Positions 27,901-33,900 of a stretch of DNA of 64,000 bases are shown one piece after another. A program made the position numbers and the translations under genes. The stretch is taken from positions 88,098 through 152,097 of the forward strand of contig JAQGDQ010000512.1 of the NCBI GenBank assembly GCA_030141605.1, given 5' to 3'. Numbering within the stretch: position 1 is the first letter of the stretch; every line of letters begins with the position of its first letter. This DNA comes from Tubiluchus corallicola. Lineage: Eukaryota > Priapulida > Priapulimorpha > Priapulimorphida > Tubiluchidae. The notes beneath the pieces were generated by a model. The model saw only the letters and a program-made list of their open reading frames with translations. It searched no databases and was not told where the DNA came from.

Positions 27901-30900
27901 GTTGAACGGGAGGAAAGGGGAACAATTGTAGTGTTTTCAGTATGCCCCAGTTTAGATTACATTTGATACATCTAGCTTCTGGCTATAATTTTGAATGAAG
28001 ATACTATGGATTAGAGAAGTAAATCGATACAATTTGATCTATACAATTCCGATTCAATACAGTTTTATTTAGTTCTGCTCATTCCTTAACAACTGTTTGT
28101 AGCGTGTTGGTAATTTTGCTCATTCCTTTTACCAACTGTTTGTAGAGTGTTAGTAATTTTGATCATTCCTTAACTGTTTGTAGCGTGTTAGTAATTTTGA
28201 TCATTCCTTAACAACTGTTTGTAGCGTGTTGGTAGTTCTGCTCAGTCCTTTTACCAACTGTTTGTAGAGTGTTAGTAATTTTGATCATTCCTTAACTGTT
28301 TGTAGCGTGTTAGTAATTTTGATCATTCCTTAACAACTGTTTGTAGCGTGTTAGTAATTTTGATCATTCCTTAACAACTGTTTGTAGCGTGTTGGTAGTT
28401 CTGCTCAGTCCTTAACAACTGTTTGTAGCGTGTTGGTAATTTTGCTCATTCCTTAACAACTGTTTGTAGCGTGTTAGTAATTTTGATCATTCCTTAACAA
28501 CTGTTTGTAGCGTGTTGGTAACTTTGTTGTTTATAAATGATAAGCGGACTTACCCGCAGTACTTTGAGCGGATCAGCATCCGGACCAAGCTCTTCTATCT
28601 GTGGTCTTGAGCTACAATCCGGATGAAACATGTGATACAATTTCAATACATCCATGGCGTCTGACAGCCTATACATCAGAAAAGAAGTGTTCATTAACAA
28701 ACATGTGCTTACTGGAATTGACAATCGTGAAGAAGTGAATGCTTGATTTGCTTAACCCTTTCACTACAGAAGGCAGCACACTGGCCTACAGACGGCGGTA
28801 GACTGCCACACAAGTTCAGTACTTAGCGCAGTCACCCCTGTCTGTTTATTTCACTGCTACAGCCATGCAGAAACATTGTAGAGAACTTTAACAGCCTTGG
28901 GATTGAGGTTGCCTTGCAACAAGTAATGCTAACCAGCCAATCAGCATCTGAAGCCAGGTGCATTGCACAATACTGTACTGTATGGTATGTTCCCATGCAA
29001 ATTAAAAATATCAAAAAACAAAGACAAAAAGACGAAAAAAAATAAGAGAAAATATGGGTACATTTCCCAGAGCATAGCCTGCACCTCAACTTCAATGTGG
29101 ATTATCTCAGCTTAGAAATAGCATAAAGTGATGAGCTTGTATTAAAATGATCCTCATGAATAACTAGAAAACCTTAATTGCTGACTCATGGGCGATTTAG
29201 CTATGCAAGTACACATACGTAAAATTGTCATTCTATCGCGTTTCTACTACACCTAAATTTGCATCAGTAATTAGTGAAAAATTTAGCAAAACTTCCCTTA
29301 TAAATTTACTACAGACACAAGTTGATGATACGTAAGAGACTTACAAGTCGCGCTGTATCATGTCTATTAACAAGTTGTCTACTCTACTTGTGAAAAATTT
29401 AGAAAAACATTTCTGATAAATTTACCACAGACACAAGTTGATGATACGTAAGAGACTTACAAGTCACGCTGTATCATGTCTATCAACAAGTTGACTACTT
29501 TACTTGTAAAAAAGTTAGCAAAACTTCTCTTATAAATTTATCACAGACACAAGGTGATGATACGTAAGAGACTTACAAGTCGCGCTGTATCATGTCTATC
29601 AACAAGTTGACTACTCTACTTGTGAAAAATTTAGCAAAACTTATAAATTTACCACAGACACAAGTTCATAATACGTAAGAGACTTACAAGACACGCTGTA
29701 TCATGTCTATCAACAAGTTGACTACTCTACTTGTGAAAAAGTTAGCAAAACTTCTCTTATAAATTTACCACAGACACAAGTTCATGATACGTAAGACACT
29801 TACAAGTCACGCTGTATCATGTCTATCAACAAGTTGACTACTTTACTTGTAAAAAAGTTAGTAAAACTTCTCTTATAAATTTATCACAGACACAAGTTGA
29901 TGATACGTAAGAGACTTACAAGTCGCGCCGTATCATGTCTATCAACAAGTTGTCTACTCTACTTGTGAAAAAGTTAGCAAAACTTCTCTGATAAATTTAC
30001 CACAGACACAAGTTGATGATACGTAAGACACTTACAAGTCGCGCTGTATCATGTCTATTAACAAGTTGTCTACTCTACTTGTGAAAAATTTAGAAAAACA
30101 TTTCTGATAAATTTACCACAGACACAAGTTGATGATACGTAAGAGACTTACAAGTCACGCTGTATCATGTCTATCAACAAGTTGACTACTTTACTTGTAA
30201 AAAAGTTAGCAAAACTTCTCTTATAAATTTATCACAGACACAAGGTGATGATACGTAAGAGACTTACAAGTCGCGCTGTATCATGTCTATCAACAAGTTG
30301 ACTACTCTACTTGTGAAAAATTTAGCAAAACTTATAAATTTACCACAGACACAAGTTCATAATACGTAAGAGACTTACAAGACACGCTGTATCATGTCTA
30401 TCAACAAGTTGACTACTCTACTTGTGAAAAAGTTAGCAAAACTTCTCTTATAAATTTACCACAGACACAAGTTCATGATACGTAAGACACTTACAAGTCA
30501 CGCTGTATCATGTCTATCAACAAGTTGACTACTTTACTTGTAAAAAAGTTAGTAAAACTTCTCTTATAAATTTATCACAGACACAAGTTGATGATACGTA
30601 AGAGACTTACAAGTCGCGCCGTATCATGTCTATCAACAAGTTGTCTACTCTACTTGTGAAAAAGTTAGCAAAACTTCTCTGATAAATTTACCACAGACAC
30701 AAGTTCATGATACGTAAGAGACTTACAAGTCACGCTGTATCATGTCTATCAACAAGTTGACTACTCTACTTGTAAAAAATTTAGCAAAACTTCTCTTATA
30801 AATTTACCACAGACACAAGTTGATGATACGTAAGAGACTTACAAGTCACGCTGTATCATGTCTATCAACAAGTTGACTACTTTACTTGTAAAAAATTTAG

Positions 30901-33900
30901 CAAAACTTCTCTTATAAATTTACCACAGACACAAGTTGATGATACGTAAGACACTTACAAGTCACGCTGTATCATGTCTATCAACAAGTTGACGACTCTA
31001 CTTGTAAAAAAATTTAGCAAAACTTCTCTTATAAATTTACCACAGACACAAGTTGATGATACGTAAGACACTTACAAGTCACGCTGTATCATGTCTATCA
31101 ACAAGTTGACTACTCTACTTGTAAAAAATTTAGCAAAACTTCTCTTATAAATTTACCACAGACACAAGTTGATGATACGTAAGAGACTTACAAGTCGCGC
31201 TGTATCACGTCTATCAACAAGTTGACTACTCTACTTGTGAAAAAGTTAGCAAAACTTCTCTTATAAATTTACCACAGACACAAGTTGATGATACGTAAGA
31301 GACTTACAAGTCGCTCTGTATCATGTCTATCAACAAGTTGACTACTCTACTTGTGAAAAAGTTAGCAAAACTTCTCTGATAAATTTACCACAGACACAAG
31401 TTCATGATACGTAAGAGACTTACAAGTCACGCTGTATCATGTCTATCAACAAGTTGACTACTCTACTTGTGAAAAATTTAGCAAAACTTCTCTTATAAAT
31501 TTACCACAGACACAAGTTGATGATACGTAAGAGACTTACAAATCGCGCTGTATCATGTCTATCAACAAGTTGTCTACTTTGCAATGCCGGAGAAGGTAAA
31601 ACACAAGAACGCCAAAATGTCGAGTCGAGCGGAGATCCTGAAAGCTTCTGGTTTGGTCGATGTGAACGTACGTCCGTTGTGTCACCTGAAACAACATAAT
31701 GTCACCTCTAAAAGGAAAACGGCATGATCTGCCAAATCCTGCTCTATTCTGAATTTAAAAAATGGAAGTCCTTGCTTAATGATGCTAATGAGTTTCAGCA
31801 AAATGCTTCAGGAATGTAACTGAATTCTTTCACATTAATTTCTAGGGAAGACTTGGCTTTGTTTAACGATGTTTCCCTTGATTTTCGCATTTTGCTGGAC
31901 TGCATTAGCATCATTAAGCGAAACGTCGTTAAACAAGCCAAGACTTCCATAGAAAGTAATATAAAAGAGCTGAGATTCATTCCAGTGGCAAAAATCAAGC
32001 TGCTTAAATCATATATATTAAAGGTTTTATGAGTTTTACTCGTGTTTCTACTGAGTAATTTCTTTCTGCTTGCTTGAAGCCGCCTATATACCTGAAGCAG
32101 CCGAAATTCGACTCCAAAGGACTCCAAAAACCTGTATTTGTATTTGTCGTATTGTATTCCTTACTCCTTTCATACATATTCCTTGCAAAATTTTATAACT
32201 ATACGTATACAAAATTTCTCTCCATTAACACAAACTATTTTATAATTAGGTACTAATTACACTTCTGCAAAAATGAGAATATAATCACCTCTCAAAAAAA
32301 CTAAAACTATGATGTGTGAACCTGCTCCCATGAACTCTTTTTTAGCGCTGTCCTATTCTTACTGACCTACCTGACTGTTCCTTTTTCACATTTCTTATAT
32401 AATTCTCTTCTCTCTAGTACAAACTACATTACTAACAATTGCCAGGTGCCACATAGCTGGTCGGTCGCTGCTTTGCGATATACTTCAGTACAACCTAAAG
32501 ACGTGTGCTCGTACCTAGCATAACCACTTTGGTTATCGCATTTCAAGGAACAATTTTTACATTGGTTTTCATAAACAAACCTAGCTAGCGGTTTCTCTTT
32601 CATTAACAGTTAAGTGTAAGCAGCGGGGAATTTTATCTAGTCTCATTACTACAGGCTGCAGGCAAAATTGATACAGAAAAAAGACTATACAATAATCGAT
32701 AAAATATACGATAATTTAATAATGTGAAACTAAAAAACAAAGCGTAAAAAATGAGCAATGAGAAAATTTAAATCATTAATGTTGACGAGGAAAAAAATAA
32801 ACTGAAGTCAGCTGACTTTAAATATTTTACAATTCAGCTTTAAGAGTACATAAAGCTTTAAAAAAATTTTCCCTCCCTTCCTATGGACATCTTCTGAACT
32901 CATGCGGTACGACAGAAACAATTTTTAGCCCGGCCTGAGATGTCAGTTTACTTAAAAAAGTTTGTGCAAAAATGGATTTTGTCGTTTCTAACCCTGTGAT
33001 ATTCTGGATCATCCGGTTCAAACTGCAAGCATGCTCTTTCCAATACGAACTCATATTTCTGATTATTGAGAACTTCTTCCAGTAAATCCGGTTGAAACAT
33101 CCGGGGAACATCCAACTTTCTGCCCGCGACTGGAAAATATATCTGCAACATGCGATCTCGCTCCGCCCAGGTGGCTTTCCGCAGCGATCCATCCAAGTCT
33201 CGCACAACAATAAACCTGTCCTGTTGATAGACGGATAGATAGATCATTTTATTTATCTCTTGTAATACACGCAAAAAACAATTACATAGCAAAATAAATT
33301 AGTATTAGATAGATAGATAGATAGATAGATAATTTTATTTATCTCTTGTAATACACGCAAAAAACAATTACATAGCAAAATAAATTGTTAGTATTAGATA
33401 GATAAATAGATAGATAGATAGATAGATAGATAGATAGATAGATAGATAGATAGATAGATAGATAGATAGATAGATAGATAGATAGATAGATAGATAGATA
33501 GATAGATAGATAGACAGACAAGCAGACAGACAGACAGATAGATAGATAGATAGACAGACAGATAGATAGATAGATAGACAGACAGACAGGCAGACAGACA
33601 GACAGATAGATAGGTGGATAGATAATTTTATTTATCTCTTGTAATACACGCAAAAACAATTACATAGCAAAATAAATTGTTAGTATTAGATAGATAGATA
33701 GATAATTTTATTTATCTCTTGTAATACACGCAAAACACAATTACATAGCAAAATAAATTTTTAGTATTAGAGAAAGGGTGGCAAAAACCCTAGAGGTTAG
33801 CAAATCAGCCACCCTTTTAATTAAAGTTGTAACAAGAATATCTAGCGACGAAATAATCATACAATGAGAAAATCAAACTGAAATAACACTGTAAAACGGC

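Follow-up and report, generated by a model that had tools for sequence, protein, structure and literature searches.

A minisatellite repeating the exon 5/intron 5 boundary of the mS22 gene

When the end of a coding exon and its splice donor are repeated many times within the following intron, the question arises whether the copies are spliced in as additional exons, affect the processing of the host transcript or simply leave with the intron. This question is raised by a gene on the reverse strand of the window (the whole stretch of 64,000 bp analysed here). The gene was identified as mS22 by a PDB chain match (E 2.7e-65) and by the Pfam family MRP-S22 (E 1.2e-95), and a search of the 343.5-Mb assembly with MRP-S22 gave four exon matches, all of them at this locus. 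The closest named mS22 was that of Priapulus. The IPPK gene was uninformative about the taxon, its best hit having 34% identity.

The array at the end of exon 5

On the reverse strand, exon 4 (32993-33220) is followed by exon 5 (31540-31685, 146 nt), which ends in ...VDNLLIDMIQRD plus the TT of a split Leu codon and is joined to the donor GTAAGT at 31534-31539. Exon 6 (28554-28668) begins with GCTG after the acceptor TATAG, and exon 7 (24963-25061) was the last coding exon found. According to the exon coordinates, the introns of the gene span about 0.9-3.8 kb.

The first-pass annotation had reported about 20 donor copies after exon 5, and direct parsing found just this: the donor TTGTAAGT occurs 20 times downstream of exon 5 at a spacing of about 116 nt, beginning with the true donor (G at 31539), followed by 19 copies and ending at 29344. 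TRF described the array at 29274-31578 (reverse strand) with a period of 116, 19.9 copies and 93% matches. The tandem repeat straddles the exon-intron boundary, the real exon end being one of its copies (copy 0), and the repetition is far beyond chance. A unit consists of the last 38 nt of the exon, the first 71 nt of the intron with the donor, and a 7-nt joint, AAGTAGA. The unit length of 116 bp claimed for every unit holds for 16 of the 19 complete units, the remaining ones being 117 bp (one) and 111 bp (two) long. It was also correct that the exon end is copied, but the copied coding portion (GTA...TT) is 38 nt rather than 39 nt, base 39, which closes the last Leu codon, being supplied by exon 6. 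At its far end (29265-29281, reverse strand) the linker TTTTTCAC (29274-29281) passes into other intron sequence, TAATTACTG. Within the array, a 676-bp stretch at 29339-30014 (reverse strand) recurs without a mismatch at 30030-30705, at a shift of 691 bp; this duplication of a six-unit block is consistent with recent array instability in this one assembly. The window as a whole is rich in minisatellites, seven of which, hand-picked from the TRF output, cover 7,921 bp.

When the exon end and the linker were searched against the assembly, 20 of 20 reported matches of each fell within the array, these counts being lower bounds from a DNA search that skips very common words. Such confinement fits exon 5 as the source and gives no hint of a mobile element. 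A transposon or introner origin was rejected, since the matches reported by this search included no related copies elsewhere in the assembly. Among 30 kinase loci used as a control, three had an array (period at least 20, at least 60 bp) and none had one at 60 bp or less from the match, although these loci, mostly large uninterrupted ORFs, make a weak control. Taken together with the results below, the array is most probably a 'mirage', a minisatellite born of a tandem duplication that spanned the junction of exon 5 and intron 5 in mS22, and it is probably removed with the intron.

Frame and splice signals of the units

All 19 copies carry a donor, a CTAA, a T-run and an AG, and in all of them the proposed 42-nt pseudo-exon is open in the mS22 frame, as the annotation had stated. 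The first (31424-31465, flanked by ...CACAAG and GTAAGT; 39-nt form at 31424-31462) and the last (29345-29386) of these pseudo-exons lie on the reverse strand like the gene, and parsing and the mS22 matches confirmed the gene, the exon, the array, the donors, the frame and the phase. Two details required correction. The string described as preceding each pseudo-exon occurs exactly (tgctaaatttttcacaag) in three units only, while a relaxed form, CTAA[AC]T{4,6}[CT]?ACAAG, occurs in all 19; and the in-frame 39-nt alternative is available in 14 units, which have the TAG acceptor, but not in the other five, which have TAA instead. The implied introns between neighbouring pseudo-exons would be 74-77 nt, and introns of this length are feasible. 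Each copy could thus in principle be spliced in, and cassette splicing is possible as judged from these signals.

Scored with a generic Shapiro-Senapathy-style matrix, which is not fitted to this genome, the 19 copied donors reached 7.41, compared with 5.90 for the true exon 5 donor and 4.23-10.79 for the five mS22 donors, and they were the top 19 of the 289 GTs from the end of exon 5 through intron 5. With the same matrix, the 14 TAG acceptors (5.76-6.54) took ranks 2-15 among 216 intron AGs; the true exon 6 acceptor scored higher (7.79), and the TAG acceptors fell within the range of real mS22 acceptors. The acceptors of the 42-nt form, which the annotation had put first, were weak (1.47-4.24), under all six real mS22 acceptors (5.01-11.13), and the splice signals are good in part. 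Copied donors that outscore the true donor and TAG acceptors within the real range both count against a silent mirage.

The pseudo-exon is set in frame by the 5 bp inserted where the units join, a point against the mirage explanation, and since the open frame itself is inherited from exon 5, the coincidence lies mainly in the phase and can be considered mild to moderate. In simulated duplications at surrogate donors, 12.5% were in-frame with an acceptor of at least 5.76, a threshold chosen after the data had been seen. At the five real mS22 donors (4,941 duplications each), an open in-frame product with such an acceptor was obtained in 5.9%, 0, 3.8%, 0.2% and 0, and this rarity was also counted against the mirage explanation.

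Two further arrangements of splice sites were rejected. A recursive splice site would have an AG directly before the GT, whereas AGGT was found in none of the 20 units and AG and GT are 39 or 42 nt apart; the same result speaks against an array of dual-specific sites of the UBC type.

Cassette exons, decoy donors or a passive repeat

If the copies were used as microexons of 39 or 42 nt, spliced in variable number, each would add a module of 13-14 residues to mS22, comparable to the varying number of monomers in polyubiquitin UBC. In the predicted structure of the homologue from one relative (P0001), the residues matching the copied part form one helix (267-275) and a turn (276-278), and the exon 5-6 junction falls in this turn, so that one unit would add a helix and a turn. 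In the boldest version, at least some copies, first those 14 with TAG, would be included in stochastic number, and the frame-setting joint would have been kept because it rendered duplication harmless or useful. The result would be a mitoribosomal protein with helix-turn modules at an inter-helix loop, their number tied to a fast-mutating minisatellite. The intact signals, the open frame and the good scores favour this reading, but the comparison of units does not. Divergence per site was 0.050 in the pseudo-exons and 0.056 in the linker, and the nine pseudo-exon changes comprised five nonsynonymous and four synonymous ones (P of at most five = 0.12), which leaves purifying selection on the pseudo-exons unsupported. 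Together with the 12.5% of simulations that were in-frame, these data lend no support to a use of the units as exons. In a post hoc test, the invariance of 12 core splice columns reached borderline significance (P 0.054); P fell to 0.006 when the set was widened, again post hoc, to 20 invariant columns, a value not relied on because of the non-independence of the units. The acceptors of the 42-nt form are weak, and five units lack the other in-frame AG of the pair. Long introns favour exon definition, as would be expected for those of mS22, and mS22 is a structured ribosomal protein. Moreover, 1.2-1.5 kb contigs of the relatives P0001 and P0002, which we infer to be transcripts, encode complete mS22 without introns (87 and 85% identity), and no array insert was present at the exon 5-6 junction in them or in the Priapulus caudatus protein, a comparison limited by the fact that both relatives may lack the array in their own gene. 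The motif LLxxxIQ occurred twice in none of the 120 homologues listed of 233 hits, a weak result, as just 65 of the 120 have it even once. Both the active use of the units and its stochastic version are considered very unlikely.

An equally slim chance is given to a regulatory role, in which twenty U1-binding donors would influence how efficiently mS22 RNA is spliced, or its polyadenylation or decay. The copied donors are the best-scoring ones of the region, and a TAA within the donor lies in frame directly after QRDL, so that use of a later donor without intervening splicing would give QRDL-stop and lead to truncation or decay. On the other hand, the array bears no clear sign of selection, and amphioxus mirages are reported to leave regular splicing unaffected (PMC3087553, PMC3902484, as far as these accounts go). 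Hairpins masking the donors were not indicated, since none of six folded pieces around the donors was clearly more stable than its shuffles (z -0.58 to 0.31).

The relations among units look like minisatellite turnover. Units 8-12 are identical to units 14-18, and core units reach 100% identity, whereas other units can be told apart by variants (GAC/GTC, CGC/CGT, CAG/CGG). On average, the far-end unit 19 differed most from the rest (0.075 per site; others 0.039-0.068) and it had three private changes, while copy 0 (0.051, one private change) did not stand out, a point counted against a mirage; the idea that both boundary copies had escaped homogenisation was therefore dropped. The perfect 676-bp repeat stands out from the divergence of about 5% seen between other units and could suggest that part of the copy number is an assembly artefact, and the amphioxus draft genome also contained an aberrantly assembled mirage, according to the portion of PMC3087553 concerned. 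Recent block duplications are, however, normal in minisatellites. Many other units differ from each other, which indicates that the array as such does not stem from duplication of a single read. An artefact of this kind, which would be compatible with the mirage explanation, appears improbable.

Proposed origin and known systems

For the preferred explanation, a boundary minisatellite, we infer the following course. In the founding unit, intron base 71 (TTTTTCAC) would have been joined to exon sequence at AAGTAGA, with a 5-bp duplication, GTAGA, arising at this joint and an acceptor being newly created there. Unequal exchange or slippage would then have amplified the unit to 19 extra copies, including one recent duplication of the six-unit block. 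Most likely, the first donor of exon 5 would be spliced to the exon 6 acceptor and the entire array removed as intron, while pseudo-exons might be included at a low level.

A comparable boundary minisatellite in a housekeeping gene outside cephalochordates was not among the entries listed by the literature searches, and the array would extend the mirage phenomenon to such a gene of a non-cephalochordate animal. It offers an unusually clean case, in which one true donor is accompanied by 19 copies in nearly identical surroundings, and whether cells ignore the copies would test the choice of the first donor over equal or stronger neighbours. The case also bears on whether boundary minisatellites give rise to new introns and repeat exons.

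Mirages, in which an exon-intron boundary is duplicated in the manner of a minisatellite, were described in amphioxus Adh3 and the globins BflGb6 and BflGb9 (PMC3087553) and in TnC and PGBD5 (PMC3902484); in the parts of both reports concerned, RT-PCR was taken to show regular splicing. Judged by its anatomy, which matches these cases, the mS22 array is a large mirage. It shares with them the tandem duplication of a boundary, the many-fold repetition of splice signals, a similarity of units that may reflect concerted evolution, and possible cryptic splicing (as outlined in PMC3087553), and like the BflGb9 mirage it lies at the 3' boundary of an exon. Its unit of 116 bp (variants 111 and 117) is within the range of 10-160 bp given there, and its 19 extra copies compare with six and three repeat units in two BflGb6 haplotypes (PMC3087553). 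It differs in the gene, in its non-cephalochordate host and in the in-frame pseudo-exon of every copy.

Similar principles have been reported elsewhere. In an intron gain in potato RdRp, a boundary-crossing tandem duplication likewise reuses parental splice signals, but this was a single acceptor-side duplication whose new intron was seen in RNA-seq reads, according to the relevant passages of PMC4974935, whereas the mS22 array has 19 donor-side copies with an acceptor made at the joint. Human UBC, as far as described in the section of PMC10809524 concerned, also has in-frame repeats bordered by splice signals, of which variable numbers could be kept; there AGGT can act as a 5' or as a 3' splice site inside coding repeats, while in mS22 AG and GT are separated and the array is intronic. 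Finally, human segmental-duplication genes contain variable internal tandem repeats at exon-intron boundaries, minisatellites that, like the mS22 array, may cause novel introns, with 30-bp units repeated four times on average in paralogs (from the part of PMC2812944 on these genes).

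The mS22 gene and the intron 5 array

The joined exons of mS22 (MRPS22), on the minus strand of the window, matched the Pfam MRP-S22 family (E 1.2e-95) as well as mS22 chains of solved structures (E 2.7e-65). In a profile search of the 343.5-Mb assembly, all four Pfam MRP-S22 exon matches fell at this locus, so the gene looks single copy. Among the 120 listed of 233 matches, the nearest proteins (84% and 82% over the query) were encoded by P0001 and P0002, intronless contigs of 1.2-1.5 kb from two close relatives, presumably transcripts, and the next nearest was that of Priapulus caudatus (57%). 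This ranking, for a single protein, would place the host among the scalidophorans, probably as a priapulid-like animal. Exons 5 and 6 lie at 31540-31685 and 28554-28668 (both minus), and exon 7 starts at 25061 (minus). Two arrays sharing a similar 41-bp unit, and running in opposite orientations, take up nearly all of intron 6: one has 66 copies (25141-27851), and the other, of 11 copies (28079-28526), begins 27 bp away from the donor of exon 6. In the mS22 pre-mRNA the two could fold together into a long hairpin.

Intron 5 contains a tandem array of a 116-bp unit (29274-31578, 19.9 copies by TRF) with 20 donors reading TTGTAAGT, the first of which is the true exon 5 donor. The first-pass annotation had correctly described these copied exon ends and their in-frame pseudo-exons, but its 116-bp length applied to 16 of the 19 complete units (one was 117 bp and two were 111 bp), and its copied coding end of 39 bases was 38 in a typical unit, accompanied by 71 intron-start bases and a 7-base joint. 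At the joint, TTTTTCAC is followed by AAGTAGA and this by GTAG(A/T)C; relative to the exon (AAGTAGAC), the joint has an additional GTAGA. At the far end of the array, TTTTTCAC (final base 29274) is followed by different intron sequence. When the assembly was searched with the exon end, allowing two mismatches at most, and with the 84-nt linker, each query gave 20 matches, all inside the array. This fits exon 5 as the source of the repeated exon end; within the limits of these searches, no mobile relative was seen.

Elsewhere in the window, an ORF at 11575-12177 (minus) encodes Baculo_FP-like domains (PF25298, E 1.1e-10), which are frequent in retroelement ORFs. A 30-bp minisatellite (18111-18742, 21 copies) forms a repeat ORF open on both strands, as expected because its unit length is divisible by three. 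A single ORF at 43372-44607 (plus), open from stop to stop over 411 codons, encodes inositol-pentakisphosphate 2-kinase (IPPK; PF06090, E 1.1e-63); its best database match, at 34% identity, was not informative about the host. On other contigs of the assembly (C1730, C177, C1761 and others), AAA domains sit in ORFs that run for over 800 codons without interruption, and many contigs carry kinase domains in long ORFs, in contrast to mS22 with its many introns; the assembly may include sequence of a cobiont or contaminant.

Reading frame and splice signals of the copies

Use of the AG in ACAAG gives a 42-nt copied exon end, which is open in the mS22 frame in 19 of 19 copies, as had been claimed. 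The alternative 39-nt form, using the next AG, is present in 14 copies only, the other five reading TAA. The open frame is mostly inheritance from the exon, and the coincidence is phase, which is determined by the 5-bp GTAGA insertion (the pseudo-exon would otherwise be 37 or 34 nt). When 150 random duplications were simulated at each of 177 surrogate GTAAG/GTGAG sites in the window, an acceptor scoring at least 5.76 arose in 30%, and an in-frame one in 12.5% (openness not required); at the five real mS22 donors (4,941 simulated duplications each), open in-frame pseudo-exons arose in 5.9, 0, 3.8, 0.2 and 0%. These rates suggest a mild to moderate frame coincidence, judged post hoc.

Splice sites were scored with generic matrices not fitted to this genome. 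All 19 copied donors scored 7.41 versus 5.90 for the true exon 5 donor, a gap produced by one base at -3 (GAT to GAC or GTC), and took the first 19 ranks among the 289 GTs scored across the exon 5 end and the whole of intron 5 (range of the five mS22 donors, 4.23-10.79). Acceptors of the 39-nt form scored 5.76-6.54 (ranks 2-15 among 216 AGs), all below the true exon 6 acceptor (7.79; range of the six real mS22 acceptors, 5.01-11.13), whereas those of the 42-nt form reached only 1.47-4.24. The scoring proposed in the first-pass annotation was therefore favourable for the donors and the 14 shorter-form acceptors but not for the longer form, and 14 copies are predicted to be credible splice substrates and five poor ones.

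The exon part had a pairwise diversity of 0.050, and the linker one of 0.056. Five of the nine variable exon positions were nonsynonymous and four synonymous, versus about 75% nonsynonymous expected, which gave no significant sign of coding constraint (P of five or fewer among nine changes, 0.12); nor did the zero stops among these changes indicate stop avoidance (P 0.78). The 12 core splice columns (GTAAGT, CTAA, AG) were invariant (P 0.054), as were the 20 columns of a broader set chosen post hoc (P 0.006). This invariance was not counted as a sign of selection because the array units are not independent.

Origin of the array and its place in the transcript

The simplest reading of the sequence is a founding tandem duplication across the exon 5/intron 5 boundary, which would have reached from AAGTAGA in the exon as far as base 71 of the intron and been followed by amplification. 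Units 8-12 are identical to units 14-18, and an exact 676-bp repeat occurs within the array at a shift of 691, although this block may possibly be an assembly fault rather than real. The far-end unit has three private changes and on average differs most from the rest (0.075 per site versus 0.039-0.068 in other units, gaps left out). Together these relations point to the pattern of minisatellite turnover. The real exon copy is average (0.051, one private change), and exclusion from homogenisation appears to be visible at the far end only.

The array is best explained as a large mirage minisatellite, a duplicated exon-intron boundary of the kind known from amphioxus, which would leave with intron 5 in most transcripts. 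The first-pass annotation was right about the sequence, but its suggestion that units may be spliced into mS22 transcripts, though possible, appears improbable. In an AlphaFold2 model of P0001 (mean pLDDT 85), the copied residues begin at 266 and form a helix (267-275) and a turn (276-278), with the following helix from 279. The exon 5-6 junction falls in this turn, so an inserted unit would add a helix and turn, which the protein might tolerate. No insertion was found at this junction in P0001, P0002 or Priapulus, and none of the 120 listed homologues had the LLxxxIQ motif twice, a weak negative since only 65 had it even a single time. If a late array donor were used with no splice in between, the product would end in QRDL at a stop codon, because the donor's TAA is in frame.

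Comparison with known boundary duplications

The array shares two anatomical features with mirages, a repeat across an exon-intron boundary that includes the real exon end and a unit length within their range. As described in PMC3087553, mirages have units of 10-160 bp, many with AG/GT signals, vary unstably in copy number and show homogenised core units; RT-PCR was interpreted as regular splicing continuing despite them. Mirage homogenisation excludes boundary copies; here core units are up to 100% identical, the far-end unit is divergent (0.075) and the real exon copy is average (0.051). The exact 676-bp repeat would fit recent copy-number instability. Further lancelet cases, PGBD5 and TnC, are given in PMC3902484. 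Among the papers listed by the literature search were lancelet cases and none recognisable in a scalidophoran, a weak negative since most subscription papers lay outside it. Related systems are potato RdRp intron gain by duplication across a boundary (PMC4974935), Drosophila cases (PMC2891723), human boundary repeats (PMC2812944) and the UBC array (PMC10809524).
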